Assembly (NCBI GenBank): GCA_029532415.1
Contig: JAQOTA010000018.1
Location: 62,001 to 126,000, forward strand
Direction of reading: 5' to 3'
Source: Marasmius tenuissimus
Lineage: Eukaryota > Basidiomycota > Agaricomycetes > Agaricales > Marasmiaceae
Length of the DNA stretch: 64,000 nt
The position numbers and the translations under genes are program-made. Each line of letters opens with the position of its first letter. The first letter of the stretch is position 1. Below, piece after piece: positions 2 to 23,251 of this stretch. Below the pieces are notes generated by a model. It was not told the origin of the DNA. It was given only the letters and a program-made list of their open reading frames with translations, and made no database searches.

Positions 2-3000
2 CGCTCGTTCGAAGCTATAGCACACGATCTGCAAAAATTCAGCGGCCTACTTCCTTGGGTACACAATGTACGACCTATCTTTTCCTGTTGGACATACTTA
101 GAGTTCAGACCCCTCCCCTTTCAGCCTTAGATGGAAAAGTGGTTAAGGAGCAGGGAAGAATGGAGTATGGGAACGCTCGAGAGAACAACGACTACAGGGC
201 GGTCGTGGATGTTTTAGAATCTGTTGTCAGAATCCTTGATCGTGTTGGGGATGTGATACCATGCACTCCTTTGAAGATTGTCACCGCTGGGCTCTTAGAG
301 CTCTTCGGCCTATATCAGGTGCGGGTCATAATCATAGACTTTTTCTGTCTAACCCGGACGTCTACTAGAAACGCGCCGACAACGTGGAGAAGTTCGCGGA
401 GTTCCTTCGCAGCATGAAGGACCTGGAAGTCCTTCTTCAAGATTTCTTGCGACCGGACGTGAAAAAGCACCCTGATCTGAGAAATCGCTTTGAAAAACTC
501 GTAGTGTGAGCACATCTGCCTCAATGTTATGCACCGAATCATACGCATTCGCATTACAGTGATTTTGAAGGGTACCAAGCCGAGATAAAGATCCGCATGG
601 AACAACAACGTTCTCTGGTTGCTCGAGCCAAACGGTTTCTCCTGGTACGACAGGATGCCAGGTTTCTCTCAGATCTGGCGGGGAAGATCACCGGTTCTGT
701 ACAAAATCTTATGGTACGTCAGACCGATCATCCGCATGATAGGCTGTTACTGAGACCTTTCGACAGTTCGGGCTTGCTGCCCGTACACATGGCCAAGTTA
801 ATGTAAAAATAAACAGAATCTTTCGCCGCTTTTTCTGACGTTCTCCGCACAGCAAATCGACGAGAATGTGAACGTGAGTACGCTCGACTCTCCACGCAAT
901 CGAAATTTTACGAAGTTCCTTTCTGCTTCCAGACCTTACTCGACCTTCGTGAGCTATACCGATCTTTTTTTCAAGACGACGAACTCACATTAACCCCTTT
1001 CAGATCTACTAGAACGGCTCCGCCCTATTGAAGAGGCTGCTTACAACGGGCGAGATAGGCCTCAATGCCAATTCGGCACAAGAAGGCTGGTCCTCCAAGA
1101 GCTTCTTGAATGGGCACGGTCTAGAGATTCTGAACAGGTTTGTTGGCTTTCAGGGCCACCTGGTTCAGGGAAGTCTGCCATCGCTTGTTCGTTCTCGCAG
1201 GATCTCGACCAGGCTTCCGAAACAACCATTCTCTTGTGCAGTTTCTTCTTTTCTGAGGGGGACAACATCCTGCGTTTGGTCCCGACCTTAGCCAACCAAC
1301 TCGCTGTCCGCCATCCACCCTTTCGTCCCTTGTTGAAGAGGGGCATCGAGACACATGAAGGTATAGGCAGCGGGAAGTTCGCTGACCAGCTGGATCATCT
1401 GCTGTTTGCCCGCCTAGGGACCCTATTTGTCCGTAACTCCCTGCCAGTTGTCCTGGTCATTGACGGACTCGAGCAATGCCCTAACAAGGATGAATTCGAC
1501 CGAGCCAATGTCTTTATCACAGAACTAGTGGCTCGTCTACCCAAAGCCCCGTATGTGAAGGCTCTCTTCACTTGCCAGCCCACCACTCGGCTGGAGCTTC
1601 CCGCTCTCGGGAGAACTCTAGCTATAGGACCTGGAAAATTTGAGGTTGACGATGACATCCGTCGCTACTTCATCTCACGGTTGAAGGGATTCAACACTAC
1701 ACATGATCAACCTAAACGGCAGATAAACATCTCCAAGGCTGTTCAGAGGGCGAATGGTTCCTTTTTCTGCGCATCCTATATGTTCGAGCTACTCAGAAGC
1801 AACTACGAGGAGTTTTACGCTCTCCTCAACACTGCAGGAGATCTCGTCGGGTTGGAAGCTGTCGAGGCGAGTTACGAGCGACTTCTCCTCGAAGCGCTCC
1901 GTGCAGAAGGCCAGACCAATCAGTTTCACATGTACTCGTTCCTGTTGACCATTGCTTGCCTAGAGTTAGCCCCGCCGTTGTCGTTCCGCGATGCCAGCGG
2001 CCTTTTTGAGGGGGAGGTTGGCATTGGACAACTACGGATTTTCTTCCAACGGCTGTCAAGCGTCGGCATTCATATGTCAGGTGACGACGCTGATGGAGTT
2101 GTCCTCTTCACCGACCATGTCTTCAAAGACTTCCTTCTTGCGCGTGCCCAAGCACCGCCGGATCCGATCGTTTCTACGCCGCTTCATCACTACCGGATGG
2201 GACTCGATCTCTTTCGTTACATGTGCGAACGACTTAGAAGAAATGTCGTTCGCATTCCTCCAATGCAGCCTTCGAAAAACGTCGATTACTCGCATACCAT
2301 AGATCCCAAGCTCCAGTATGCTTGCCGGAACTGGGCCTACCACCTAGAGAGCGGGCTGACGGAAATCGACACAGCCGAGGGTGTTGTCTCAGAAGTTTTG
2401 GATGCGCTCTCCTCGTTTGTTCATGAGCGCTTGCTGTATTGGATCGAAGTCCTAGCTCTACTCAGATCCATCCCAGTCGCTGTACAATCACTGAAGCGGG
2501 CGAAAAACTGGATGACCAGCGTGAAAGTGAGTCACCATGTCTAATCCTCGTTATTTGTGTTCATAAAAATGTCGCCAGGTCATACCAAGTCGATACCGGG
2601 ACGACCTCGTCCCACTATTCGAGGCCACTTTATCTGCTATCCAAACATGCCGAGCCGTAATCGAGGAGTACCCATGCCAGGTGTACGAATCCCTTCTCTT
2701 CCCTCCGACCGCGTCTACACTCGCTACCACATATGACCACGTCCAACCATTCGTGGCTGAAGTCGAAGAACGCCTGATGAGCCAAGAGATAGTCACAGAC
2801 TCGGATGTTGTCATTTGCTCCCTCTCCCCTGATAACAACCACCTTGCGACAGGGCACTCTGACGGTATGGTCAGGGTATGGGCGATTGCCAGTGGCCGGT
2901 TGTTGAGCGAAGCGAGGACACCGGAAAGTGAGGATGATCGAGGATGTACTGTGCACGACGCTGCGTTCATAGATCGGCGAAGGGTCATGACTATCATCCT

Positions 3001-4588
3001 CAACAGTCAGAGTTTTTACCTGGAGGTCGCTGCATGGGATATCACCCAGAATCCGGCGCGTAAAGAGGTGTCGTTGGAGAAGGAGTCTGGAGCGACAGCA
3101 ACCCAGGCGCCAAAGCTGACATTGTCTGCGACTGAGCAATCTATCGCGGTGCTCGTGAACGGGACTGTCACGATCTGGGACGTAGAGACTTTGAAAACCA
3201 CGCACAGGTTCCAACTACGTATCGATAAACTTTTAGCTCTTTCTTCAACGCATTTGGTATCCGAACGCGAAGTGTGGACAGCCGACAACATGGAAGCGAT
3301 TCACCGGTTCTCTCACGATCTCGCCAGCGCGGCCTACAACAGGAGCGAAACGATCCTCGTAGTCAAAGCCCACAACGAACGAATCTCAGTTCACGACGCA
3401 GTCACCCTTACCATTTTGCGAGCCTTTGGCCTCACACACTGCGACCCAAAGCTTCTTGAACCTTCTTCTATCAGGTTTTCTTCCGACAATCACCACTTTT
3501 CCGTGTTCGGCCCCTCTTTTGTAGCTGTGGGCAAAGGCCAACAACCGTACGAGAAAGTCTTTTTCATCCCGAAACCCAACAGGGCCCGTGTGTTCGATGT
3601 TCACTTCTCCGATGACAACTTGGCATTCACCGTGGCATCTGCTCCGAACGAGTGTGGCCGCATTGTTATTCACGGATACGCACTTGGTCCTTCAAAACCT
3701 TGCTCCCTTGCCACCGCGGCGACTTTTGCTTCTAATGGGAACGTTGTTGCGATAGGATACAAGAATGGGACCATTGCGGTGTACGAGAATCCCGGGCATG
3801 GTCACCTTCTTGGACGATACAAGCATTCTTGGCTGGGCGAGAGGAACAAGGTTGTTCACCTCTGTTTCAGTCCCGACGGGAGACACCTCGCCAGCACAGC
3901 CTCCAGTGGTACGACAACAGTAAGGCGTGCAATATCTTCAGCTTTGGAACCCCTGCTCAAGCTGGAGTCGTCCCCAAGAAAGACATATCTGCCTCTCTTC
4001 GCATTCTCTGGCGACTCGAGACGTGGGGCTGGGATATTCAGGTTACCGTTCATGCTCGACAATGATCTGTACGTGGAGGTGGTTGCGCTCGGTGCCAAAT
4101 CCACCATAATCAATCTCCGAATTCGCTCCAATGCGTTGAAGACTGGAATACCTGAGAGCACCGACCCTCCCCTGTCAATGGCTCTCTCGGGAGACGGCTT
4201 GGTCTGCGCCATTTCGTTCACAAATTCCATACTGCTGTGTCGCAACCAGCATCCTTATCTCTCGAGGGATCGTAAGAGAACAGTCGAGGTACCTTTAGAG
4301 GACGTCGTTACGGTCAGGGTTCCTGGCGCTGGCTCGCTTTCGTTTACGCCTGACGACCGCTTCATTACTTCGACTGTGGGTGTTTTAGATGCGAACACGT
4401 TACAACTCCACAACACCAGTATTCCTCATGACCGTTGTCATTTCAAGGAAGGATGGATTATGGACGTTGCGGGTAATAAACGATCGTGGATACCAGTCGG
4501 AAAGGATCTCGTGTTCTATGCATCGCACAGGACGCAGATCTTGTTGGTAACAGGTGGGAAACTAGTGCATATTCGTGTCCGTTTGTAG
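2..4588 (+). CDS. NACHT-WD40 STAND (NLR-like) protein, 5' partial
   Basis: NLR-type signalling ATPase whose start lies upstream of the window. Exons can be followed from base 2 (reading about 2-58, 109-318, 369 onward), giving a helical N-terminal region with the stretch ADNVEKFAEFLRSMKDLEV. The nucleotide-binding domain follows, with Walker A GPPGSGKS at about 1154-1177, Walker B VVLVIDGLEQC at about 1447-1480 and a sensor-like VKALFTCQP. An intron at about 2527-2577 leads into a long exon (to 4588) with degenerate WD40 repeats, for example SLSPDNNHLATGHSDG and CFSPDGRHLASTAS. Basidiomycete genomes carry many such genes, linked to non-self recognition and cell death in the few studied cases. 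Exon boundaries between 590 and 1010 are not resolved. The N-terminal domain is not one I recognise. Roughly 1,300 residues lie in the window. Confidence 0.88.
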
Positions 4589-4946: not shown

Positions 4947-6852
4947 ATGTCATCGCTCAAGAATTCATCCTTTGGAAAACGTCTACGCGCTTCTCATGAG
5001 CAAGGCAATGAGAACTCCCCCCGACGAAAACGACGGCGTATCGACCTAAGCTCGACAAGTCCACCTCCATCGCCTTCGAAAAAGTCCTCGTCGTCGTCTA
5101 CGAGCAGGCCTCTCTCGACAGCCGCTTCAGATATTACCAACACTCCCGTTCGTCGACATAAAATTCGATATAGCGGCGGACACAGTGGCGAACTCGGCGA
5201 CCGGTTCGTTCCAGGACGAGATACGAGCAGCATCCGGGCATCATACAGTCTGAAGGGGGAAATTGGGTCACCTATCGCTCTAAAGACGGCGACTACTCAA
5301 CGGTTTCCACCTGACCCAGTTAGAGGTGCGTCTGAAAAGCCATATTTGAGAACGTCGACGCGTTACTGAGGGTGCTTTCGTCAGACCAAGCAAATGATCT
5401 CTACAAATCCATTCTCCGCTCAGAACTCTCCACTTGCTCTCCTTCACGTCTTCCAGCAACGCCCTCACCTACACCAAAGCGGATATTTGGTTACAAGCCA
5501 TCAGTGCCACTTGCACTCGAGCCTAACATCTCGCCAGAGCGTCTCAACAACCCGTTTGACATGTCTTACCAAACGAGCCCGGTCCAGAACGAGACACGTT
5601 CCCTCATGAGCCAACCGAGGCCTCAAATACGTAAGGTCGATAGGGCACCTTACAGATGCTTAGATGCGCCAGATTTGTCGGATGATTTTTACACGAACCT
5701 GGTTGACTGGTCTTCCTCTGGTATCTTGGGTGTCGGTCTCGGAGGAACGGTTTTTCTTTGGAGAGCAGACAACCTTTCGGTTTCCCAACTTTGCTCGGTC
5801 AGTTCACCCAAGGACGAGTACAGCTCGGTTGCATGGATGAAAACGGTGAGGCTATCCGATCTTGATCGCTCGTCTCCTGTTACTCAATCACCTGTGTTAT
5901 GCTGTCATTCGCAGGAAAATACCGTTGCCGTTGGCACGTACGACGGACACCTCGCCATCTATGATGCCGTTGCGCAGAAACTACTCCGCACCTACCAAGA
6001 TGCACACGACGGGAAGCGTATCGGATGCCTATCATGGACCTCAAGCGTCATTTCTTCTGGCTCACGCGATCATACTGTCCAGCACCGTGATATACGCGAC
6101 CCCTCCTTCTCTCCGTTCAAGACTTCGACAGGTCACAAGCAAGAAGTCTGCGGGGTAAAATGGAGCGGTGACGGTGGACCCAGCCACTCGTTGTTGGCAA
6201 GCGGCGGGAATGACAACAAAGTCTGCGTGTGGGATCTACGAGGGTCTACACGGGCACAGACGCTTGGGGTACCGAGCGTGACTGAAACGTCATTTGTTCC
6301 TCCACCGGTTGGCCCACTGCAGAGGATATCCGGGGATATGCCGTTGTACAAGTTCCACCAGCATAAGGCAGCCGTCAAAGGCCTTGCGTGGGATCCCCAT
6401 ATCTCTGGTGTTCTGGCATCTGGTGGTGGGCAGAGGGACCGATGTATCCGTTTTTGGAATACGGCAAATGGGACAATGCTTAACGAAATAGACACCGGGA
6501 GTCAGGTACGCTTTCCGCTACCCCGTCTTTCAATAAATTGATGGGACGTTTTGAATAGGTCTGCAACTTGCTTTGGTCTGTTAACTCGCACGAACTCGTC
6601 TCGACCCACGGCTATTCCACAACAACCGTTCCCAATCAAATCTGTGTATGGAAGTACCCCACTATGACTATGGTGTCATCACTTGTCGGCCACACTCAAT
6701 GTGTTCAGTACGTCGCGTTGAACCCAAACGGTGACACTATTGTTACTGGAGGCGGTGACCAGACGCTTCGATTCTGGAGCGTGTTTCCTGGGCGTACGCA
6801 ACCCTCCAAGAACGAGGATAGCGTTCTCAATCATGACAAGCTCATCAGATGA
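4947..6852 (+). CDS. CDH1: APC/C activator Cdh1/Fizzy-related (WD40)
   Basis: Co-activator and substrate receptor of the anaphase-promoting complex, acting in late mitosis and G1. Exons 4947-5325, 5385-5845, 5915-6505 and 6559-6852 give 574 residues. The N-terminus holds a basic patch (SPRRKRRRID) and the C-box as DRFVPGR, followed by ILRSEL. The propeller closely follows Cdh1 rather than Cdc20: LDAPDLSDDFYTNLVDWSS, VGLGGTVFLWRA, GHKQEVCGVKWS, LASGGNDNKVCVWD, CIRFWNTANG and STHGYS. The protein ends in Ile-Arg, the IR tail that docks on APC3. The first intron (5326-5384) is needed to join the C-box frame to the ILRSEL frame; the 59-nt GT-AG choice restores phase exactly. This is the fission-yeast ste9/srw1 type. 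Confidence 0.93.
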
Positions 6853-8572
6853 TCTTGTCCCCCGAACTATCGTCCATGTTCTTTGTTTTCTTTCTAGTTG
6901 CTCCCCCTCACGAGCTCTCTTGCATCACATTCAAATACCACTGTGCGCACACTCTCCCTTATCATTTGTTCTCATACTTCACCTTTGCAACGCATGTTGT
7001 CTTTTGTAATTGCTCTCTCATTCGTATGCTCGAAACATCCACATCTTTGATTCTCTTCATCCTCATAGCCTCTCCTCGGTACACATTGTAACGCTACACA
7101 TCTGCTAATTATTACATGAACAAAGCCAGCTACATAGTATACACTCATTTTACATGGAATTTCGTTTTCGTTAGAAATATCAGCCCCATTCTGATCAATC
7201 GCCGTGCCCTAGACGTAGTCCGTCTAAATATATAGTCGACGAGCGACAACGATATCACCCGAGCCGGTGGTGTACTAAGGGAAATGTTGTTTACCGTATA
7301 CATATATTTCGGTTCTTCAACTCGAAGAGAAAGACAAAATTTGAGACTTGTCGAATCGTCCATTTCTGAAAAGACTTTTGGTCTTTGAGGGGGTGTCGAC
7401 GTGTCGACGTGATTCCACCTAAGATGAGGATCCCCAGCTCAAATGGAATCCTCCCGCTCGGTCGTATTCACAAGACCGTGAGTAGCAAAAATGACGGACC
7501 CAGTGAGATGTCCATAAACTCTGTGTCACCGCAAGGCCTAGGCCCACAATCCTCCAAAGCCAGGTAATCCTTCACCGCCGCGTATTGTCCGTTCCTCCAA
7601 TACATCCCTACCTAGGCGTCCAGTTGTAGCTTAGGAAATCCGAAATTTCGACAAGACACAGTCCAGCTACACACATGGAATTTCAAACGAGAAACATGAA
7701 TGAAACAGAGCATACAGAAGGCGCACTTGACCTTGAATCTGATGACTTTGTAGTCCTCGAATTTCGCATATAGTTTGGATGGGTTTGGATCGAGTTTGAG
7801 ACGGTTGTAGAAAGACCACCAGGTTTCGTCTTCTCATCTCTCCGTCCCTCCTAAGCCACAGTGTATGTTGTTGGTATTGGATGCGATAGAACTGCAAATG
7901 CTGAGAAATGCTGGTAGCGTGCTGGCAGTGGAATGATCGTGCTGGGGGTTGTGTAAACCGCTGAGCTAATAATGCGTTCGCGTTTCTTCCTCCCACAATC
8001 ACTGCGATGCCATCGTGAATCTTCCATCATCCTTGGTTGTTCCTGTCGTGCTTCACTAGTGGCAAGCTAACTTCATCCCTGGCACCTTCCATGATCGTTT
8101 CCGAAGTATCACCGCCGTACACAACAGTTGTGTAAGTGACTCCAAAGCACGCCTAAGGTTGACAGAGTTCGGAGTTGGGGTTCACATACATGGCGAAAAT
8201 CTGGCATGATACATGGTTCCTAACTCTGAGTTAATAGGTGGCAGCAATCAGAAGACATGGATGCATGGCCACCCGCACGCCACCCGGGGAAGAGCCCGAC
8301 ACCCATTCTTGGAAAGCACCAAGGTTGAACTCAATCGAGACCCGATAATCTCCCTTACGGCCTCGTTCACATCTGAAATGACAGTAATTCACGCTGGAGA
8401 ATGAAAGGGGTCTTGTCATTGAGGGTTGGGTCAAAGCATCGATATTACATATCTGTGTCCTGCATGTGTCTTTCTAAATCCGCACCAGGTTAGCCAATCA
8501 GTTATATACGGTCTTTTGCGAGTCAAAGCGTTGCTCACATCGATTTTCTCAGTCCCACTGTAGAATCTCACG
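6853..8572. other. Intergenic, no gene seen
   Basis: Downstream of CDH1 there is T-rich 3' sequence to about 7100, then about 1.4 kb with only short uncorrelated reading frames on both strands. I see no RNA gene or repeat. The last 100 bases should include the promoter of the MDP-1/5'-nucleotidase gene. Confidence 0.5.
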
Positions 8573-11500
8573 ATGTTCCCAAAGCTCGTTGCTCTCGATA
8601 CAGAGTGGGATTCTCTGATTTTCCTCTACGGTTATCGGTTCTGATATTCAAGGTTTGCAGTGGTACGATCTTCACTGGTCAGCTTGACCAAGATGTTTGG
8701 GGAAAGGGTCCGAAAGCTGCAGATAAGCTTGCGGATAACATTCACAAGGTTGATGAGCTCACCCTTGAGGACAGAAGGTGAGTATACGCAGCGACCTTTA
8801 CTCCGGATAATACGGCTAATACCTCGTTTTGCTAGTGCTCGCGACAACAAGGTCAACATGAACCCCGACATTCCTAGGATCGTGACCGATATTCTCAGCA
8901 ACGGTGCCTCTCTTGCGATCGTGTCGCGAAATACTAGCAAGGCTCTGTGCGTACATCTCTAACGCGACATGAGGTGCCGGGATCTGAACGACATGGTGAA
9001 CAGATGTGACCGAGCTTTGGACTATTTCCAGGCCAAAGATCCCAAGTCTGGGGAAACGAAACCGATCATCAAACTTGTGCGCTACGACGAAGTCGTTGAC
9101 GGTGGGTGTAATTCTCTTGAGGTCAAGGAGATCGTTCACATATCCTCTGTATACAGAACCAAAATCCGAGCACTTCAAGCGAATCCATGGGTGGTCCAAG
9201 TACGACTACACCGATATGGTCAGCATATTTCTTTAGCTCCCGGGAATGTGATGCGACGTAGTTTACAGGTTCTCTTCGACGACGAGGCTCCAAAAGACGT
9301 CAGCGATCTCAGTATGTGTCCTTCGTCTCATAGTGTCGCCTTATTGCTCAACTTCTTGCAGGAGTCGTCGTGAACGACTGTCCTGCCGAAACCGGTTTGA
9401 CTTGGGAAATCTATTCGAAAGGGATTGCGCACTGGGTTGAAAAACAGAAAAAGCGTTCAGCTCCTGGAACAGCTACGACATTGAGTATCGCTCACTTCAA
9501 CGACGTGTATCAGGTTGGAGATCAAGAGATCAAGATAGATGGCAGGCAGGAGACGATCAACGTCACCAAGTTTGCGACTTCGTTGGCCGACATAACCGCC
9601 AAATGGAACAAGAGGGAGGATGGCAAAAAGGATGGCCTGATCGTCTTCTCCGGCGACTTGTTTTCACCCTCGAGAGAAAGCGCCGTCACTAAAGGCAAGC
9701 ACATGGTGAGTCGCAAATGCTTCGCCGTCGACTTGACGGCTGACCTTCCCTTTTACGACAGCCACCTATCATTAATGGTCTCGAAGTCGACGTTGCGTGT
9801 GTTGGTGAGTCTAGTTGTGATCTGTTGCAGACCACCGTTGACCTCGTTATGTAGGAAACCACGAATTCGACGTTGGTGCGTTATATCTCGAGTGATGTCG
9901 TCTGGCTTACTCATGTCCCAACAGCGGTAGTCGATCTTCAAAAGCTGATCAACAATACTGCATTTGTAGGCCATAACCCTCAATACGAACGATTTTGCGT
10001 GTTGAAGACCCCGTTTCTATAGCCTTGGCTTCTCAGCAACGTCGTCGACGAAAAAACCGGAAAGGTTCCTGAAACCATGCAAGAACTATACGTTTTAGAA
10101 AGAGCTGGCGTTCGCATCGGCTTCGTTGGTCTTGTGGAGAAGTACATCTCGTACTTTTTAGTCCCCGGGGACTCCTCGCTCACTGGTGTGCTAATAGGGA
10201 GTGGATCGCTACGGTAACTGGATGGCCTCCGAACTACAAGTGGAAGGATATGGCAGAGGTTGGGAAGGAATTGTCCGCCGTGCTTCGCAACCCCATCGGC
10301 GAACACAAATGTGACCTTGTGATCGCTGTGACCCATTCACGGTATGGATATGAACCTCTCCTGGTGACGCTTTTAACTGACTCTTGTACTTAAGTTTCTC
10401 AAGGGCAAGATATCCAAAACTTTCTTACAGGCCTGGGCTGAACCCTGATACATGATCCATAGGACATCAAACTTGCTAGAGCCCTTGGTGCTCTTTCCCC
10501 GAAGGGCCAGGAGAATACGGATATAAATTCTCTTCAGGGCGTTGATCTACTCTTGGGTGGACATGATCACATCTACTGGATCTCGAAAGGTGTCACTGAG
10601 TGGGATGGCTACGACATACAGTCATCTCAAGAAGGCGCCGAAGATGATGAGGGCGACACCCTGATCGTCAAAAGCGGCACCGATTTCCAAGACCTTAGTG
10701 AGGTAATTTTGGAACTGAAGGATAACCCGCCAGGAAGTGTCAGAAACAAGGTTATACAGAAGATCACAGGTGAGTCAGTGGCGAGAAACGGCGGCCGCTT
10801 GCTGATAGGACTCACGCCAATTGTAGGAAAGCGTCACATCACGAGAGACAGCACGCCCGTGAACAAAGCTATGAAAGCTATATACGATGAGCAGCTTGTA
10901 CACATCAATGCTACCATGGTTGAACCGATCCTCAATACAGAGGTTCAACTGGACGTTCGTTCGTCCTTCGTTCGCCTGCAAGAGGTATGTTGGTTCTTTT
11001 TACGCCAAGTCGAACTGACAGTCCTGCAGTCTCCCATTGGAAATTGGATCACCGATTGTATCAGGCCTGCGTACGATGAAGTGCTCCCCAAGGTGGGCAA
11101 GGGCTACGGAAAGACAGATTGCGTCATCGCTTGTTGCGGCGATTTCCGTAGTGACAGAATTTATGGACCGGGTGAGGGCTTGTCTGACTTGAAGGGATCG
11201 TGACACTGCTGAAGCTGGAACTCCAAGGGGTTTTCACAATGAAGGATTTGGTGGATGTCTTACCTTACCAAGATCATACCGTCGTCCTTGAGCTCGATGC
11301 GAACGCTCTGTGGGATACAATGGAATCTGGTCTTTCACAGTGGCCTGCTCATGAAGGGTACGTTATCTAGTTGGATCTCTCCAGACATTATTCTGACCTC
11401 ATCTTGCAGTCGTTTCCCTGCCATCTCTGGCATGAGAGTCACCTGGGACAGCAGGAAGCCCGGTAAAAGTCGTGTCCTCTCCATCTGGCTCACGGAACAT

Positions 11501-12455
11501 GACCCGAAGAAGCCCGGTGTGATCGTGGACAAGGAGGAGGTGAAACGTACCAGCACTCGGAAGTATCTTGTCATGGTTGGCGAATACATGGCCAAAGGCG
11601 GTGATGACTATAATATCCTTGTGGGCAAGAAGCAGGTTATCGACGGGGAGCATGGACTCCCTAAGAGCTTCCTGATCAACAAGTTCTTGAGTGGTGGGTT
11701 GGGGCTCTTAATCAGTACAAGCATTTACGGACTATTAATCCACAGGCGCTCAATTCATCAACAAGCAAATGATAGAGAAGCCCTCAGCTCGTGATGCCAT
11801 GTCGGACAAGACGTTGGAGATCATCGAGAGTTTCGAGGATCGATTACCAGAGCTTCCAAAGTTCAGCCTAGAGAATCTCCCGGACATGCCGTCCTGGAAG
11901 GCGCCTTCTACACGAAGTATACCTGAAACCCCGTCATTGACGACGCCCTCAGCTTCGTCATTCAAAGCATCATCGATACCAGAAAGCAAGCGCCCACCCA
12001 TGCCCAATCTACCCTCGTCCGACTCGTCCCGCAACAGCTTGTCCGATGTCTCGAGCGCGGTCCAGTCAACGCAGGATCTTGTTCAGGATTTCGTTCAGGA
12101 CACTGCTCAGTCCGCGCTGGACCTTGGAGTCTCTACCATAATATGGGTCGCAGCTGGAATGCTCCTCGCTGGTGCGCTCGCAGTGGCCGACAACGAGGAC
12201 ATGGGGTTGCTGGACCCCTACGAACGTGTTCGTACGCGTGCCACGGCCAGCCTGCTTCGTAATTCAGACTCAGCGAATATCAACCCGGGAATGAACCTTT
12301 TCGTTTCCAGAGCTGTCGACAGTGACGAGGATCACAAAGCGGCTGCAGATGCAGTGGACGCGAAGGTTGATGCTGCTGAAAAGGAGGCACAGAAGGCACT
12401 CCCGGTCATTCATCCAGTTGTTGATGGGAGGTTGAAGGACGTAGCTAAGGCGTAG
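8573..12455 (+). CDS. Gene A: MDP-1-like HAD phosphatase fused to 5'-nucleotidase, C-terminal membrane anchor
   Basis: Two-enzyme fusion of roughly 900 residues. The first ~195 residues form an MDP-1/acid-phosphatase-like HAD domain: nucleophile motif ALDTDGTIF (joined over the intron 8605-8660), motif II LAIVSRN, motif III HFKRI and acid motif VLFDDE, then LTWEIYSKGIAHW. In the same exon (about 9362-9705) it runs without a break into a calcineurin-like 5'-nucleotidase domain: IAHFNDVYQV, FSGDLFSPS, VACVGNHEFDVG, LLLGGHDHIYW and IGNWITDCIRPAYDEVLPK. The tail is Ser/Pro-rich with one hydrophobic segment, VSTIIWVAAGMLLAGALAVA (about 12130-12190), and an acidic, Ala-rich end. Both halves keep metal-binding and catalytic residues. 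Splicing around 10330-10465 is unresolved. The start is the ATG giving MFPKLVALD, matching paralogs B and C, each with a 32-nt first exon. Confidence 0.85.
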
Positions 12456-12941
12456 TGTGATGGGTGACAAGCCACAAGGAAATGTATCATCCACCCAGTA
12501 GCATCTTTTAAACACTTTTTCAGTTGACCTCACACTCAATTCCTGTCCGACGCACGATCGATGGCAATCGCTCTGTTAAACGCCCAGGATGACACTTAAG
12601 TCTGGTAAATTTGGAGTCAATGGGTGAAGCGACCCGGTCCAGATTGCCAAACAGAGATTAACTGACAGAATCGAGAGTACTCGTGAACATGAAAAGGACA
12701 TACATATGTACACACACTGTTGAAAATCTGCGTACAAAAGGTTGGGAGGAGATCCCTGATCTGATCATCCAATATTCTCGAAGTTCGACACAAAGTCGTT
12801 ACGCGTGTCCCGAGGAATGGTAATGTTTTAGTCATATTCCGCTCATAGTCTACATTCTTCGTAGCCTTCTACTGGCTGTTTGACATGCGGCAGATCAATT
12901 GATCATAGCGCACCGGGCCCAGACTTTAGCAGCGCAGTGGC
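12456..12941. other. Convergent 3' intergenic
   Basis: Space between the 3' ends of the MDP-1/5'-nucleotidase gene and the broken NmrA-like gene. I see no coding signal, RNA gene or repeat. Confidence 0.5.
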
Positions 12942-14010
12942 TCATGCCGGGACCCAGCCCTGGTCAACGAAGTTCTTCCATTTGTGACCGACCCAGAGGT
13001 GATTGTCATTGGCCTTGGCACCTTCTCGAAATACGTCCTTCTCGTAGTCGAACGTCGTGCTCCCCTGCCCCTCGTTCCAGATTGACACAAGGTAGTTTTT
13101 TCAGGTTGCCTAGGAATTCACCTGGTACACGATTGGTAAAGACGATCTCCTTACCTTGCCTCTTTCCCCATCTCAACGACGGTGGCATGATCTCCCTCAA
13201 TGCAGAAGCACCTGTTCTCGAGCTCCTTGGGTGGAAGAGCAGTCAAAACGTGAGCAGTAAGCCCTAATGTTTGCGCATCAGCTCGCCAGGACAGAAAGGC
13301 TGGCTCAATTAGGCCCACTCACCGCCGATGTCTGCCTCGTCCGTGAACGAGACAGGCTTGTCACCCTTTCCAAGAACGTTGACTTTTCCATTCTCATCCT
13401 GACCAGTGAAAAAGGAGAGATATCCAAAGAAGGATCCGGTCCAGTTCCTGTGTCATTTGATGCTTCTGAAAGGGACGATACGTCTTGCTCACCATGATAC
13501 GATCGGAGCATAAGGAAGCTCGAGCTTCGTGAGTGATCCTGTATGATCGACGCATCGTTAGAGAAATTTATACGTCGATACTGACTAGTAAGTAGATACC
13601 TCACCGGCGAATTTATCTTTCCATACAATTATCGACTGCTCTGGACTTGGTGCGTTCGGGGCTTCGCTAGCGCCTTGAGCAACGACATCTTATTCCAAGG
13701 GGACGAACAATTTAACACCTGTCTGCTTTGCAGCCTCGGAGAGTGGATACTGCAGAGCCAAAACAGCGTTTGCAAGGGTGCAAACGACTTCGATATTGTT
13801 CTCCTTGAGAGTTTTGGCGACCTCGTCGACGTTTTCGTAGGACTCCACTCTCACCATAGCCAGCGAAGTGTCGGGAAATTTTGTAGCAAAGTTGGTGTTG
13901 GATGACTTGCGTGTCAAGATGACTGGAGTGACGCCTTTTGCGACGAAACCGTTGACCAAATGAGTGCCGATGTCGTCAATGCCAATGACCGCGAAGACTT
14001 TATTAGACAT
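12942..14010 (-). pseudogene. Broken NmrA-like/isoflavone-reductase-type NAD(P)-binding protein
   Basis: The start reads MSNKVFAVIGIDDIGTHLVN, a Rossmann fold with a degenerate glycine motif, continuing to KLFVPLE at 13693. Homologs continue with an aromatic residue here, but this copy has an in-frame TAA (13690-13692); sequence after it is still recognisably coding (DVVAQGASEAPNAPSPEQS, then GYLSFFTGQDENGKVNVLGK with DKPVSFTDEADI, and the tail HKWKNFVDQGWVPA ending at 12942). Frames near 13080-13160 also do not join through standard splice sites around a run of six As. I therefore read it as a recently inactivated gene. A sequencing error at the TAA, or an unrecognised intron, would be the alternative. 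The family binds NAD(P)H as a redox sensor or oxidoreductase. Confidence 0.65.
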
Positions 14011-14616
14011 TTCAGGAGATGGTGGGGACTCCCGACAGCTGGCTCTTTGAAGGTAACAGAAGTGAGTGAACAGTACATCGAGTCAGCCGAGCGTACCCAC
14101 TGATCGTGTCACCCGCGATCTTGTTCTCATGCTCACATTACCGCAAGTCCTTGTATGTGAGAGGGAGTCAGGAGGGAGTTGACAGTACGGGTACCACTGA
14201 GAAGGCCTTGGCGCAGAAACTTGTGAGATTAGGAAGCCCGAGAATGCGACTAAGATTTGACAAGATTGCAGCGTATCTTCACATGTATCTGGTATCTGAC
14301 CTTCACCTTGTCAGTCGTGTTGTGGGTCGGAACGCGCCATCTGGCCAGGGGAGGATAGGGGAGGATGGAGTGCAGAGCTGAGAAATGTCGTGGGAAAATC
14401 AGATCTAACGGCGTCTCGGATCCCCAAACGCTCTAGCGCTGGTCATGACTACAATGAGGACTGCAAGCTCCGGAGTCTAGCTGGTCGCTCGATGGCGAGT
14501 TTCAAACCTATGTATCGTGAACAAGAAAATCTGCATATGCATAGTGGTCCCACATAGAGGTGTTAACGATAAGTAAAATTGTGTTACAACGAAGTGATGA
14601 GGAATTAGTTCCGCGA
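14011..14616. other. Intergenic, no gene seen
   Basis: Upstream of the NmrA-like pseudogene and downstream of gene B. Only short frames; nothing supportable. Confidence 0.5.
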
Positions 14617-16315
14617 TCACAAACGTGCCTGCCTAAAAGTCGGGCGTTCATGGTGTTTTCGGAAATCCGCCTTCGTTTCCTCTGGCACCTTGATATTCCA
14701 TTCCGGAATCCTATGCTCGTACCGGAGGTTCACCTTATTCTTGATGGCTTGGCTGAGTTGGGCGTCGGTCATACGTTTGATAACGATGAGGTTTTGCTGC
14801 GTCTGGCCGTATATGACCAGCTCATTGAAGCGTTGCGGGGTGGGGATAGGGAACATGAGCCCATCGCGTTTCCCCATGTTGGGATGCCGAGAAAAGAGCA
14901 CGTAGGGACGGTGAACCCCCCATGCGGCAACCTGCTTGTCGCGTTTGAGTTCACTAGTTGCAACGGTCACCTCTTTCTCATTGACGTGCGTCTTCAGGTC
15001 ATGTCGATGATCGGGAACCCAAATCTGTAGACCTTTCATGAAGATGGCCATCGTCTCAGAGTCCAGGAGATGCGTACCTTGTCCATCTTGTCCCATTTAT
15101 CACCATCCCTAGCATAAATCTCGCAGACGATGGTCTTCGCCTGAGGACCGAAAGCGGTGGCCTTAATCCAGTCGGAGAAGTATTTCGCACTGTGAACGAG
15201 TGAACGGCCAAGTGTCAATGGCGGGGACAGAAAGGTACTGACACGCGTGGGTCGTCTGCGACGTACATGGCATACCCCCATCGGGCTGCCTCCTTCCTGT
15301 CGTGACGCCTGCCGCCCTTCTCAAGGAGTTCGATGGTGCCGATGTCCATTCCGGAATACCCAAGCAACTTGCGCTTTGGATAAGCTGTAAGCTGAAGTCC
15401 GTGCCATGGACTATGAAGGGCTTTCGTACGACGCCAGTTGGCGATCCCTTCTTGGTACGTCGACCAATTCAACCCGTTTGGACAGTACTGAAATGTCACG
15501 CCTGAATCGACCATATACATTTCAGCATCCAACATATATCGTATCGAGACTGAAGTCGTGCTGACCTAGCATCATCTCGACCCTGGTACTCTGTTTCATA
15601 CGGTCGAACAGAATCTGGTATATGGACGATCAGGTGAGGGAAGCAAGCCCGAAAAGGTGTTACTGACCATATCAGCGTAACGTTCTTGATTGTAACCGCG
15701 TATTGCACGGAAGTGAACTGTCTTGTGTTCTGCAAGACGGAAGACGCGTCGGGTTTCTTTCTGATAGACACGTGGGGATGGTGGCTCACTGTCGTACACC
15801 TCATCGTAGGTGACCAGCCGTATGAGACGACGATCCTTTCCATGCTGATCCTTGACCATGAAATAATATAGCGCCCTGTCCATCCTACAGAGAAGGCCGA
15901 GCGTCAGCTACTACACCTATAGAATGTCATGAGACAGGCCGTACATGGCTTTGCTCGAGTTTCGGGAAACTATGGCCAGCTTCGCCCCGTTCTTGAGGAT
16001 GTCGGCCACAATCCGAGGAATGTCAGGATAGAGCTGGCACTTGTGGTTCGCATTGCTGAGAAGGTTGTCGGTCACGAAGAGTACGACGACATATAAGGTA
16101 TACGAGAGACTCACGTTCGGTCCCGGACTATGTGATCGTTCACCCGGTGGATGTTATCTTCGATCTTTGGACGAGCTCCAGGTCCCTTTCCCCAGGTGTT
16201 CTTGTCAAGGTTTCCTGAGAAGATACACCAGCTTTCAAAACGTTCAGCGATTTGGATAGGGAGGGGCAACAGAAGAAACCCACTCTGTGGCTAACGCGAC
16301 AACCTTTGGGTACAT
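14617..16315 (-). CDS. Gene B: MDP-1-like pseudophosphatase fused to ART-like domain
   Basis: About 430 residues, paralogous to gene A over its first half. First exon 16315-16284 (32 nt) encodes MYPKVVALATD, then WCIFSGNLDKNTWGKGPG, YPDIPRIVADILKNG, LAIVSRNSSKAM, MDRALYYFMVKD and LNWSTYQEGIANW. The HAD active site is lost: the nucleophile Asp of ALDTD is Ala (ALATD), the motif III Lys is Arg (HFRAI), and the acidic pair DD is DR (LFDRM). The second half begins in the same exon (about 15535-15260): LLGYSGMDIGTIELLEKGG, WGYAMYVADDPRVAKYF, IVCEIYARDGDKWDKMDKI, WVP. This layout resembles ADP-ribosyltransferase/PARP-like folds, with the usual first-strand His replaced by Ser (GYSG). The last ~150 residues are not recognised. 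An upstream in-frame Met exists at 16480; I chose 16315 by match to A. The ART reading is tentative. Confidence 0.75.
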
Positions 16316-17137
16316 GATGAACAATCCAGGGTGTATGAGCGATGGGTTTATAAGTGGTGACTTTATATCGTCGGCCCTCAAAAGGCCCTGTTCGTTTGGC
16401 AGCAGGAATTCTTGTCTGTCCGAGACGCTCACGTCAGAGTCAATATTAAGTGGGATCAAGGGCTCCCTATTGAGCTGCACTCTCCAAGCCTAAACATTGA
16501 CAACCATGGTATAGGATGTGTGACTTCAAGTTGCGACGTCTATTGAGCGGCTGACCGTGTACCTTCTGACTGGTTGGAGTTTATTGATTCGGAGTTTGTG
16601 ACCATATTTCATGTCAACGTAGCGCTTGGGCGCGAATGTTGTTTCTGCAAAGGTGACTGTCAACACGAAGGGCACATATGCTATGGATGAATCGGCCGCT
16701 TACCGATTGAACCGATTGAACCGATATACACCACTTTCTATCTTCAGCAAATCTTTGAGCGCGAGTCTGACGATCCTGAGTATGTGAAAATACAACACGT
16801 CAATCGATAGCGACACTTGTGCATAGAACATGTCAGGAATTTCGTTCATTGACGGGATTCATGACAGAAATGAGGGTGGAGGATCCAGGGAGGCTCTTTA
16901 AAAGGCATTGCATTGTGGGAAGAAGAAGAGGGACAGAATTCATTACCTAAGTAGTCAGCCGGCTTTCTTCCAACTCCGGTATCTTCATGAACTTGACTTC
17001 CATCGAGCCGAACACACTGACAGCAACATGTGCCCCAAGGGGGAGATGAAAAGCCAAATGTCGTCCAGAGTTCTTCCTTCAACCGCCTTCGAATCCGCCC
17101 AAATTGCAGGGAAACCCAAACCAACCGCTACCACACT
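16316..17137. other. Divergent intergenic between genes B and C
   Basis: The 822 bp between the divergent starts of the ART-like and kinase-like paralogs. No coding region is supportable. It must hold both promoters; I see no clear TATA element or shared motif. Confidence 0.5.
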
Positions 17138-19055
17138 ATGACCATCAAAGCCATCGTTTTTGAACTCAAGTGCGCTCTCAGGTTCACCTCTCACCGAAGC
17201 TATTGTTGACGTTTCCTTGTGGGTAGTTGGACTGTATGGAGCGGCAAACTCGACCCTCAAAAATGGGGGAAAGGTCGCACAGCCAGCCCCAAACTCGAAG
17301 ACAACCTCGAACGGGACGTTTCAGACAAGCACTTGATTCGCGATGTTAGGTGAGAAGGATCGACATCCGGTCTTCCAATGATGATGAACAGTCTTCCTTC
17401 AGCGACTACTCCCGCGAGATACGCCTCTTTCACGACATACCAAAGATCATCCATGACAAAAAAGAGACGTATTCCCCTTGGTTTCGTCTCGAAGGACTCA
17501 CCACGAGCAATGTAAGTCCCTCAGCCGTGGCCTATGTGACCAAGATCGACCCAAAGACTCCATAGATGTGACCGAGCACTCTATCTCTTCGAATACCCAG
17601 ATGAAAACCAACGGGACAAACCAATAATCGAGGTCGTCGACTACAACGAGACAGGCAATGGTACGTGCACTCGTATGATTTCTCAAAAACGACTAGGTAC
17701 ATCAATGCTAATGACCTCACAGGCGACTTTATAAGCATCTTCAACAACGTTAAGGATTGGGCGTCCGCTCAAGGAAGTGAAATCGTACGTTGACCCCCAG
17801 GGTTCTTCTGTCTCGGCTGCTCTCAAACGCTATCCAGCTCTTCTTCGACTGCCATGAGGAGAGCCTCAAAGTCAATCGCGAGTTAAGTGAGTTGATAGAG
17901 CGCGCCTACAGGCCCGACCATCTATCTGACTTTCCGAACATAGGCGTTCCCGTGGAGATCGTCAGCCATCGTACCGGAGTAACATGGGAGATATACAATC
18001 GAGCCCTTGAGAAGTACGGTCACAGCGGCGGCGGCGACAACAGTCATGGAGGCGGAAAAGGACCTGATACACCTTATTGTACGACCTCACGATTCCCCGC
18101 ATCGTCAGTCCTCACTTAGACTAATTGTTCAACCAGACGGTCAACCAAAAACGGGCAAACTTCTCGGCGAAGGAAAATTCTCCAAAGTCTACGAAGCCGC
18201 CGACGACAAAGACGCGGTAATCAAGGTGCTCAAAAACTGGACCACAGAGCAACGTCATCGTCTCCTCGAAATCTACGCCGTCATCAAAACCGGTCGCCCT
18301 TTCGACCCAGGCAACAATCAACAAGACCAGTATCTTCTCATGATCGCCTTGGAGCTCCGTAACCTCAACATGATACACGAGCTGAAGGATCCAAAACCCG
18401 AAGACTTCTCTGGTTGGTTCAAGATGAAAAAGATCGAAGGGACCCACATCTGGAAACACCATCTGTACAAGAAACATCCATTCAGTGTCAAGTTCCAAGA
18501 GTTCGTCAGGGCGTGCATGCACCTTGCCATGGACGGGATCGAGCATGTTGTCAAGACGTATGGTGTCGAGCATTGGTTAGGGTCCCGCCACATCATATCG
18601 TTCCGAGTCCGTACTTATCAATACTCACAGCGATGCGCATTTCAAGAATGTAGTCTTTGACTTTGATGGCGACAAGCCTGTGCGAGCGAGCCTTCTGGAT
18701 TGGTATGTTAGTTCTCTGTAACGCTCGAGGAGCCTTGTCGCTGACGAGTTTCAGGGGTATCGCCGTCAAAATGAACTGGGACGGTAGTCGATACGTCAGA
18801 GGGGATGATTTCCAACTCATCGTCCCCAAGTATCAAGACTCTAAGCCTGGCTTGAAATACACCCCCGACGAATTCGTGAGTTTGGGCTCGTGTGACTGTT
18901 TCGTGAACTTACACATGCGAACGACATAGCGACGCTATTGGATCGCGTGGATGGTCAAGACGGAGTACACTGCTCTCTGGTCGAGGAATGCCATCACAGA
19001 AAAAGACGGTCAGGAGTTCTTGAAAGATCTAGATTGGTGGTATCATCGTTCCTAA
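17138..19055 (+). CDS. Gene C: MDP-1-like pseudophosphatase fused to protein-kinase/APH-like domain
   Basis: About 450 residues. The first exon (17138-17169, 32 nt) encodes MTIKAIVFELN, continuing WTVWSGKLDPQKWGKGR, then HDIPKIIHD, CDRALYLFEY, IEVVDY, LFFDCHEES and VTWEIYNRALEKY. The HAD signature DxD reads ExN and the acidic pair reads DC, so phosphatase activity is unlikely. A Gly-rich linker (GHSGGGDNSHGGGKG) ends at the intron 18079-18136, which has a CTAAT branch-like site and joins in phase to a kinase fold: glycine loop LGEGKFSKVYEA, lysine AVIKVL, catalytic loop HCDAHFKN (formed across the intron 18569-18632) and LLDWGIAV in place of DFG. These core residues are intact. One junction at about 17470-17566 does not splice cleanly with consensus sites: the good GTAAGT donor leaves the wrong phase, so that exon end is uncertain or damaged. 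Confidence 0.78.
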
Positions 19056-21279: not shown

Positions 21280-23251
21280 ATGTTCAGGACACATCTCGAT
21301 GTCCTTGAGTCAAGTTCTCTTTCATATCCATCCGAGCCCGTCTTCCGAATACCAGTTCTCCGCTCATCGCCGTCAGATAGCTTTCAATGGGACACGATAT
21401 CGTATCGGAGATTCCACGACGACGTATTGTTATTCTCTCGGTACTGGGCACGGAAGCTGAGACGGGATAACATTCCCCAAAGATCAGTCATAGGGCTATG
21501 GTATCGCACCCCCCATTTACCTCTTTACCCATGCCTTTCTAACTCGTATGTGTCATAGGATTGCCGGGACCACATACCAAGACGTTCTCCACATATACGG
21601 TCTATCCCGCGCGGGCTACATCCCCCAGCTCTTCAGTATCAAACTCCCGAACCCGGAGGTCATATTCGAGTTACTAAACAAATCTCATGCGCGCGCACTG
21701 ATTTGCGACGACAACTTTTACGGAATAGCAGGACAAAGTCCCGTGCCACTCCACGTTGCCGTCGGACTCTCGGGGATAGATGGTCATGGAGGCAACGAGG
21801 CGTTACCATTGCCTGAATTGCCATCCGTGCGGGCTGACGATATTGCGTTCTACTTTCACACGAGCGGGTCCACCTCAGGGAGCCCAAAACTCGTACCGTG
21901 TAGTTATACATGGTTGAACTCGGTCGTTGAGAAATCTCAACAAGCCTGCACCCCCTACCATTCTGATCGTCGCGACGTTGTTACTTGGATGTAAGCCTAC
22001 CTCCCTACGATTCTCTCCTAGTTGATAGCTCGGGTGCTGATGATTCGATCTCTTTTTTTTTACTCACAGGGGAAGTATGTGCCACATAGGTCAAACATTC
22101 AGTAAGCGCTTCCGTCGTCCCGGATCATTTGGAGACACGTCGACTTACCGACCAACTTTTCTTTCTATTTTCAGTGTTGATCGGGAGTCTCCAACACGGG
22201 GCCTGTGTCGTCCAACCGACCTCGATGCCATTCTCGGCCCAAGAGTTGATGGATATGATCTCGAACGCGGGAGTAAACCGGCTATGGGCGTTCGCTGCTT
22301 TCCTCTCTCTCCATTTCAAATCGTCTCGTCTAGATCCCAAATTAGAGTCGATGCTTACCGCTCTTGACGAAATCCTGACGTCTGGGATGCCTCTTCCCCG
22401 GGAAGATGTTGAATACGCGGGTAGAGCAGGGTTTGCATTGCGGGTGAGTAACCAATCATTCGTTCAGTCTCAGCGTCCGAGAAAGCTTGTACTGATGCCT
22501 ATTTTTTGCCCCTTTTTTCATCACTAGAACGTATTTGGCAGCACTGAAGCCGGCGCCACTCTGTTGTCCTCCCGTGGGCATGGGCAAAGCTCGGGAGCAC
22601 TGAGTACTCTCGATGGCGTTTCCTACCTCTTCAAACCCATCCATCAAACCCCAACACCCGGGGCGCATCAGTCTACCGCGCAGATGCTCGAGTTTATTAT
22701 CTTGGCTGAATCGCCGGACTGTCCCGACGCGTCCCTCCGTGCAGATGACGGACACTTCCATACTGGAGATCTATTCATGGAGATCGAGGGAGGTAAATAT
22801 GTGTTCTGCGGGAGAGACGATGATTGGATCAAGAGCCAGAATAGCTTGAGGTGTGATACCAAGTAAGTGTCTCTTTCCCTATCCTTGGTTTATGATGAGA
22901 TGAGGGCCTAACGTACAATTGGTGTTTAGGGCTATTGAAGACAATGCACGCGCAATGTGCGGGAGTATCATCGCCGATTGTATTGTCGTGGGTACTGGTC
23001 GTCCCTCCCCGACGATCTTTGTGGAACCTTCGGTAGATATGGCCGAAGCCAAACTTAAGAAGGACATTCTCCGAAAGACCCGGTTATTCCACTCCAGAAG
23101 GTATCTTCATGAACGAATAGTCTCTGACAAGTTCATTGTCGTCGTCCCGAGGGGTTCGCTGCCTCGGCCCGCAACTAAAGGAAATATCCGTAGGGCTGCG
23201 GTGGAGGAGATGTGGAGGGATACACTGGACAGGATATACTGTGGAGCCTAA
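21280..23251 (+). CDS. Standalone adenylate-forming (ANL superfamily) enzyme
   Basis: Acyl/amino-acid-activating enzyme of about 540 residues in six exons, beginning MFRTHLDVLESSSLSY. Core motifs are in order: phosphate loop FHTSGSTSGSPKLVP (about 21850), NVFGSTEAG (A5), DGHFHTGDLF (A7), CGRDDDWIKSQN (A8) and RPATKGNIRR, whose Lys matches the A10 lysine. Introns (about 21500-21558, 21990-22070, 22102-22173, 22444-22527 and 22863-22929) all restore phase. There is no carrier-protein, condensation or reductase domain in or beside the gene, so it is not a full NRPS or reductase and no biosynthetic cluster is visible. The gene resembles the adenylation half of fungal NRPS-like/aminoadipate-reductase-type proteins. 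The substrate cannot be told from sequence. The next gene is convergent. Confidence 0.85.

Follow-up and report, generated by a model that had tools for sequence, protein, structure and literature searches.

The window analysed here, a 64,000-nucleotide stretch of the genome of the mushroom Marasmius tenuissimus (bases 62001-126000 of contig JAQOTA010000018.1, hereafter C8; the source genome that was searched comprises 71 Mb in 70 contigs), contains three neighbouring genes, named A, B and C, whose products share an N-terminal domain of the HAD type, similar to MDP-1, and continue into a 5'-nucleotidase, an ADP-ribosyltransferase-like (ART-like) domain and a protein-kinase-like domain, respectively. 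Our best explanation, which is put forward tentatively, is that these genes belong to a co-inherited mushroom gene family founded by three fusion events, one for each partner of an MDP-1-like HAD domain. The finished fusions would then have been duplicated, lost and probably passed jointly between lineages.

Gene Models and Common Descent of the Three Fusions

The splice models of A, B and C were built from the genomic sequence alone, and they lie where a first-pass annotation of the window had placed the genes (Table 1). From end to end, the model of B agrees at every residue with PM082_006784 of Marasmius tenuissimus, and residues 1-200 of A match PM082_006782 (P0090 in our set of homologues; 963 aa; PF12689, PF00149, and PF02872) without a difference. 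The N-terminal domains of the three genes are interrupted by six introns at matching places, with phases 2,2,2,1,0,1 in A and B; in C, the phases of the first two are 2,2, the third computes as 0 through a break in the frame, and the introns after the third were located by eye in the sequence. Such matching intron places are strong evidence for the common descent of A, B, and C. Together with the presence of PF12689 in P0090 (for A), P0001 (for B) and P0106 (the orthologue of C), they confirm the first-pass view that a single N-terminal domain is shared by the three genes. The junction between the N- and C-terminal parts falls within one exon in both A (9362-9705) and B (15501-15243), as had also been noticed. 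For C, a 58-nt intron had been proposed to restore the phase; this intron is indeed found at the junction, but the frame is nonetheless broken upstream, in exon 3.

The break in C deserves some detail. Its exon 3 is two nucleotides shorter than that of A or B (109 rather than 111 nt), and the conserved residues on both sides of the break occupy different frames in the assembly. An intact orthologue, P0106 (AAF712_007426), is found in another record set of M. tenuissimus and contains every 6-mer from the first exon of the kinase-like part of C (139/139); an intact paralogue lies at C8:56.9-58.8 kb. The ratio of non-synonymous to synonymous change (dN/dS) between C and this paralogue is 0.065 in the N-terminal domain (41 codons) and 0.075 in the kinase-like domain (144 codons), which argues that C was constrained until recently. 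The break is either a recent real mutation or an assembly error.

Since the models derive from genomic sequence only and one of them is broken, the fusions might be thought to be artefacts in which adjacent genes were misjoined. However, the same fusions are annotated in many species, the junctions of A and B lie inside single exons, and the rest of the genome gave no match to either the ART-like or the kinase-like domain with E of 0.1 or less, and so no unfused copy of them. The conservation of the fusions and the lack of unfused copies rule this explanation out, and its probability is judged to be close to nil.

Table 1. Positions of the three fusion genes and of their main parts in the window.
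Feature	Position	Strand	Description
Gene A	8573-12455	+	MDP-1-like HAD, UshA/CD73-type 5'-nucleotidase and C-terminal extension; closed splice model, 975 aa
N-terminal HAD domain of A	8573..9443 (end approximate)	+	7 exons; PF12689 at residues 2-181 of P0090; motif positions
5'-Nucleotidase domains of A	9480..11693 (ends approximate)	+	Metallophosphatase and C-terminal domain
Gene B	16315-14617	-	MDP-1-like HAD (nucleophile Asp to Ala) and ART-like domain; closed splice model, 414 aa
ART-like C-terminal domain of B	14617..15410 (start approximate)	-	Tyr and Glu invariant; Ser at the presumed His
Gene C	17138-19055	+	Degenerate MDP-1-like HAD and protein-kinase-like domain; frame broken in exon 3
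Exon 3 of C, site of the frame break	17403..17511	+	109 nt against the expected 111 nt
GT-AG intron of C dividing the N-terminal from the kinase-like domain	18079..18136	+	58 nt
Kinase-like domain of C	18137..19055	+	6-mer match to P0106; kinase signature K, D, N, D

Distribution and Single Origin of Each Architecture

Searches with B (89 hits), with the N-terminal domain of A (16) and with the intact kinase-type paralogue (21) gave 125 distinct proteins; these searches were bounded by shared words and length, and other architectures may have escaped them. Assigned by BLAST against the three C-terminal domains, 84 of the proteins are N+ART, 20 N+kinase and 17 N+5'-nucleotidase, so that the three main architectures make up 121 of the 125; the remainder are two proteins with the N-terminal domain only, one with the ART-like domain only and one, P0103 (584 aa), with the N-terminal domain, 5'-nucleotidase, and ART. 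The latter is the sole double match for 5'-nucleotidase and ART in the set, and represents either a fourth architecture or a misjoined model. The tabulation of C-terminal partners across homologues, which the first-pass annotation had proposed as a check, has returned three recurrent fusions, often clustered. The named homologues come from what we take to be the orders Agaricales, Boletales, Polyporales, Corticiales, and Russulales. Nearly all of them are found in Agaricomycetes, apart from three ART-type proteins (P0083, P0085, and P0088) of Lasiosphaeria, an ascomycete genus of the Sordariales; one 5'-nucleotidase-type protein filed under willow is taken as contamination.

Co-occurrence was counted on 97 named proteins from 31 assemblies, willow included. 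The kinase type is present in 12 assemblies, all of which (12/12) also have the ART type, and the 5'-nucleotidase type in 11, nine of which have it. A contig is shared with an ART-type gene by 12 of 15 kinase-type and 10 of 14 5'-nucleotidase-type genes (two fragments left out), in counts that are generous where contigs are long and harsh where they are short; nine and eight of these genes, respectively, lie within 12 locus-tag numbers of an ART-type gene. Cylindrobasidium, Collybiopsis, and Pleurotus djamor have all three types on a single contig, as is also the case for the array studied here.

The N-terminal domain tree included 117 of 126 rows (those with at least 140 residues); it was made by a quick method with Shimodaira-Hasegawa-like approximate likelihood ratio (SH-aLRT) support only, and leaves 47 of its 114 inner branches open. 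In this tree, two changes suffice for the three types, which is the minimum possible, and this indicates that each fusion arose once and was then duplicated whole. As each architecture forms a single group and recurs in many species, the joins are old, and the array grew by duplication of finished fusions. Mouse MDP-1 sits on a very long branch, and the root, as well as the fusion formed first, is thus left unplaced; from the wider spread of the ART type, we infer that it is the ancestral one.

These data bear directly on a view in line with the first-pass annotation, namely a modular conflict system in which C-termini are swapped onto a constant N-terminal domain; such a system would be akin to polymorphic toxins. 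The occurrence of several C-termini behind a common N-terminal domain in one array would agree with it, and so would a relocated N-terminal copy on contig C37. In this contig, an A-like N-terminal domain is split into exons 1-6 (423712-424444, +) and exon 7 (414911-415000, -), about 9 kb apart on opposite strands, with repeat-like sequence, recognized by eye, at both break ends. Past exon 7 the frame stays open, into sequence that by eye looks like the beginning of a hexokinase gene, and a match to Hexokinase_2 (Pfam) follows about 1.1-1.6 kb further. This copy could mark a fourth fusion event or simply a rearrangement. On the contrary, each fusion has a single origin, the fusions are spread across orders, and two C-terminal types in one protein are seen in only one of the 125 homologues (P0103). 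The recurrent exchange of C-termini that would mark a polymorphic toxin was not found, with two changes for three types. The claim that the module was diversified by C-terminal swapping within 10.5 kb is not supported, since each architecture is one group of the tree and recurs across species; ongoing swapping is rejected on the same tree, and a conflict system of this kind is regarded as quite improbable.

Selection was estimated by codon comparison with array copies, in which low-identity windows were masked, a step that lowers the values. For A, B, and C against the copies with computable dS, dN/dS is 0.05-0.23: it is 0.22 for A, and for B 0.11 against copy 1 and 0.07 against copy 6 (dS 2.1, nearly saturated). 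Overall synonymous change between B and copies 2 and 4 is saturated. The N-terminal domains are under purifying selection.

Regarding the spread of the array, the proteins of Steccherinum ochraceum (Polyporales) group with those of Marasmius, Cylindrobasidium, and Collybiopsis in two further trees, one of them the ART tree, which are poorly resolved inside clades. Identity to B is 83% for P0003 of S. ochraceum and 86% for Marasmius oreades, and 60% for Cerrena, also of the Polyporales; with the query from M. tenuissimus, the kinase-type protein of Steccherinum shares 82% identity. According to these similarities, the array was probably transferred horizontally between lineages, which is the simplest reading; hidden paralogy is another possibility.

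The N-Terminal Domain as an MDP-1-Like HAD Domain

The N-terminal domain matches PF12689 (Acid_PPase) well above the curated cut-off of 27 bits in P0001 (91.5 bits), P0090 (76.1) and P0106 (67.5) and, at E up to 0.1, in 58 of 58 ART-type (alignment A1) and 18 of 18 kinase-type (alignment A2) proteins, which is far beyond chance. The equivalog model of MDP-1, TIGR01685 (cut-off 53.75), was run on six proteins, five of which gave 38.4, 28.0, 36.5, 32.3 and 25.5 bits, while P0106 had no match.

The active-site residues, scored against mouse MDP-1, differ from one type to another. The nucleophilic Asp is kept in 14 of 17 rows of the 5'-nucleotidase type (one gapped) and in 60 of 84 of the ART type (14 gapped, 10 with another residue), and in none of the 20 of the kinase type (2 gapped; 16 Glu, 1 Ala, and 1 Gly). 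Nine of the 10 altered ART-type rows are P0001-P0009, the group of B, eight of which form one clade in the ART tree (SH-aLRT 100; P0005 is absent from this tree). Asp is found at all four acidic positions in 6/17, 55/84 and 0/20 rows of the 5'-nucleotidase, ART and kinase types, respectively. A catalytic HAD phosphatase calls for the nucleophile and acid Asp of DxDxT and for the Asp pair of motif IV. Of the genes in the window, A (as scored on P0090) has Asp at all four positions, B reads A,D,D,R and P0106, the orthologue of C, reads E,N,D,C. Domains that retain their sequence while losing catalytic residues are usually kept for binding. The loss of the nucleophile, together with purifying selection, leads us to read the N-terminal domain mainly as a common docking or sensing (ligand-binding) module.

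The C-Terminal Domains

The three C-terminal labels of the first-pass annotation have fared differently: the 5'-nucleotidase is secure, while "kinase-like" and "ART-like" are plausible, yet below the curated Pfam cut-offs where shown. In P0090, the 5'-nucleotidase part scores 25.9 bits with PF00149 (cut-off 21.5) and 76.7 bits with PF02872 (cut-off 23.6), and contains the metal-binding motifs HFNDVY, SGDLF, GNHEFD, and GGHDH. Compared with the PDB, this part of A finds 5'-nucleotidases (best E 2.6e-15), so that its identity can be considered secure. With TIGR01530 (NAD nucleotidase, cut-off 436), it scores 63.5 bits, second to another nucleotidase model at 72.5. Elsewhere in the genome, the 5'-nucleotidase has relatives on C20, with 36-62% identity depending on the piece, and on C21, with 36-43%.

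In the kinase-like alignment (A2, 18 rows), K234 is invariant, and D352, N357, and D374 are present in at least 90% of the rows, P0124 being gapped there. The markers of the fold (G-loop, Lys, catalytic Asp/Asn, and metal Asp) are all found, and the motifs are present in P0106. At E up to 0.1, 13 of the 18 members match PF00069 (best 1e-05).

The ART-like domain has Tyr in 58/58 rows and Glu in 58/58 rows, and at the presumed His position Ser (48), Ala (5), Thr (3) or Val (2). A GYSG-type motif is present and the invariant Glu stands in an R-x-N-E setting; this motif and the surroundings of the invariant Tyr and Glu resemble known ART motifs. A PDB search with the full profile gave sub-threshold matches to ART catalytic domains over profile positions 198-272, and a profile of the ART-like domain only, built from 14 of 17 sequences, reached an ART structure at E 0.41-0.47. 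A designed binder and a t-SNARE (E 0.005 and 0.016 over positions 143-204 of the ART-only profile) are taken as chance matches; with the full profile, they have E 0.09 and 0.28 and rank above the ART structures. Of the 58 ART-type members, 28 matched DUF5910 when E was allowed to reach 0.1; the best E was 1.6e-4, the matches listed in detail fell below cut-off, and no literature naming DUF5910 was found. The assignment of the C-terminal domain of B as an ART is weak, and on balance somewhat more likely than not.

A HAD phosphatase, a kinase, a 5'-nucleotidase and an ART/KptA-like domain would suit a set for RNA repair, and the family might then be devoted to the processing of nucleic-acid ends. 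However, scans of the ART-like domain contained no KptA/Tpt1 match and the matches of the kinase-like domain are to protein kinases rather than to P-loop polynucleotide kinases, which makes this role very improbable.

The Array and Its Neighbors

Between 42.7 and 81.1 kb of C8 (about 38 kb) lie nine genes with the N-terminal domain, as found by tblastn in a survey that covered C8:34-126 kb: five of the ART type, two of the 5'-nucleotidase type and two of the kinase type, A, B, and C being the three at the right end. Kinase- and ART-type genes stand head to head twice, as genes 5/6 and genes 8/9; the divergent region of genes 5/6 and that of B/C have no blastn match with each other. A remnant of an ART-type C-terminus lies just downstream of A (window 12768-12898, -), and two pieces with E 0.006 each, at C8 about 45.7-45.9 kb, make up a weak remnant of the kinase type. 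These fragments suggest that copies have been lost. A candidate remnant of a kinase-type first exon (window 7667-7833) was seen by eye only; tblastn found none there, and it is not claimed.

Several other genes are found in or beside the array. A gene similar to nicotinamide riboside kinase 1 (NRK1-like; C8:55.6-56.6 kb, L032 2644-3558) lies inside it, left of the window, between ART-type and kinase-type genes; its only two PDB matches are both nicotinamide riboside kinase 1 (best E 1.1e-10), and an 88% relative is located on C10. Also inside the array is an NLR-like gene (window 994-4585, +) with NPHP3_N/NACHT and WD40 repeats, of a kind that is abundant in mushrooms. A WD40 gene of the CDC20/Fizzy type (window 5336-6535, +) lies between array gene 6 and A, and an NAD(P)-binding NmrA-like gene (window 13693-14082, -; Pfam matches sub-threshold), with relatives 45-53% identical on C30, C7, and C10, between A and B. 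The left end of the array is adjoined by a sugar-transporter-like gene (C8:39.9-42.1 kb; L030 5930-8090, -; PF00083 with 83.9 bits in one open frame and 45.0 bits in another), and an AMP-binding-enzyme-like gene lies to its right (window 21494-23245, +; PF23562 at 40.9 bits and PF00501 at 25.9 bits, the latter below cut-off).

A Possible NAD-Linked System and Its Rival

If the family acts as one system, the shared N-terminal domain would be the docking or ligand-binding module that unites three activities. The ART-like protein would be the core and might modify or deplete a target using NAD+. The kinase-like partner, divergent beside an ART gene at two places of the array, and the nucleotidase, whose HAD is intact, would tune the ART reaction or recycle its nucleotide products, possibly in the setting of an intracellular defense or incompatibility response. 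A link to NAD is suggested by the possible ART, the score of A with the NadN model and the NRK1-like gene, each of which is weak alone. A role in conflict is suggested only by patchiness, copy turnover and transfer; the self/non-self role first proposed for the locus is compatible with its patchy distribution, turnover and probable transfer, but the flanking genes leave room for a metabolic cluster. A stronger version, which we consider unlikely, would be a mobile NAD-centered defense or incompatibility system with a common MDP-1-like domain, in part a pseudo-enzyme, as its sensor and hub of assembly, an ART-like effector, a kinase-like regulator and a nucleotidase hydrolyzing NAD/NMN, in which conflict drove the expansion of the array and its transfer between orders.

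Several observations weigh against such a joint system. The four acidic HAD positions are intact in A and in 55/84 ART-type rows, so that HAD catalysis has probably been kept in many copies, and A and many ART-type proteins could be active phosphatases. The ART type occurs alone in 12 of the 31 assemblies, which indicates that its kinase-type and 5'-nucleotidase-type partners are not obligatory. The matches with PF00069 stay below the cut-off of 31.7 bits (P0105 21.1, P0106 21.3), and when five proteins were scanned with PADLOC, the hits fell on the kinase region alone (best E 1.3e-5). ART structures are matched at E 0.29-0.47 at best (0.29-1.8 overall), which is non-significant; unrelated chains outrank them (E 0.005-0.28), and the usual His is absent. 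The NRK1-like gene is a single case and could be a chance neighbor, and the sugar-transporter-like and AMP-binding-enzyme-like flanks would suit a metabolic cluster. Finally, the interaction of the three proteins and the use of NAD+ by any of them are both steps that we infer.

The close rival of the best explanation is precisely such a cluster, that is, a lineage-specific expansion of metabolic enzymes (for salvage, detoxification or a small-molecule pathway) with no role in conflict, which is a real possibility, if short of probable. It is in line with the intact metal-binding motifs of the 5'-nucleotidase, the purifying selection, the NRK1-like and NmrA-like neighbors, the sugar-transporter-like and AMP-binding-enzyme-like genes to the left and right, and the HAD residues intact in A and 55/84 ART-type rows. 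In contrast, it does not sit well with the nucleophile lost in 18/18 kinase-type rows in which the column is filled, nor with the copy turnover and remnants of the array.

In the family of once-joined fusions that we favor, three enzyme-like domains on one common partner, close together in the genomes of many fungi, would offer a natural experiment in how a phosphatase fold becomes a hub without catalysis. Should NAD+ prove to be used by the ART-like domain, a multi-protein system based on NAD would be added to fungal biology. In the openly accessible literature on MDP-1 fusions, Acid_PPase/PF12689, HAD proteins, fungal ART and allorecognition, and cluster transfer, no description of these fusions was recognized, in agreement with the first-pass annotation, which knew of no described family with this set; passages of two further papers contain nothing on an MDP-1-like fusion family (PMC13324453; PMC9815663). 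A review on fungal immunity (PMC10197012) devotes sections to NLRs, TIR-related domains, HET-domain genes, and gasdermins. The component families are known, and it is their joint arrangement that looks new.

Comparison with Known Systems

The closest relative of the N-terminal domain is MDP-1 itself (PDB 1u7o/2wm8; TIGR01685; PF12689): the domain belongs to PF12689, its profile matches MDP-1 in the PDB at E 2.5e-11, and P0090, the database protein of A, retains the four catalytic Asp. Unlike MDP-1, the fusions carry C-terminal domains, score below the cut-off of TIGR01685 and have lost the nucleophile in the kinase type and in the group of B. A resembles the 5'-nucleotidases of the UshA/CD73 type and NadN in having PF00149 and PF02872 over cut-off and the metal-binding motifs, and differs from them by its N-terminal HAD; its relatives on C20 and C21 (36-62%) are without a listed match to the N-terminal domain. 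The ART-like domain shares with the H-Y-E mono-ADP-ribosyltransferases the invariant Tyr and Glu and sub-threshold profile matches, but has no significant match and bears Ser, Ala, Thr or Val at the presumed His.

Two bacterial or modular systems are also worth comparing. The CARF-HAD (Chp) effectors of type III CRISPR are, by their description, similar in placing a HAD domain in a multi-domain protein with nucleotide chemistry in defense, and their conserved HAD residues are reported to be non-essential for toxicity; unlike the mushroom fusions, Chp is bacterial and has a CARF sensor and membrane helices (PMC12715507). Polymorphic toxin systems likewise combine a constant part with alternative C-terminal domains (PMC3482391), whereas the mushroom fusions are each of a single old origin, and recurrent swapping is not seen in their N-terminal domain tree.

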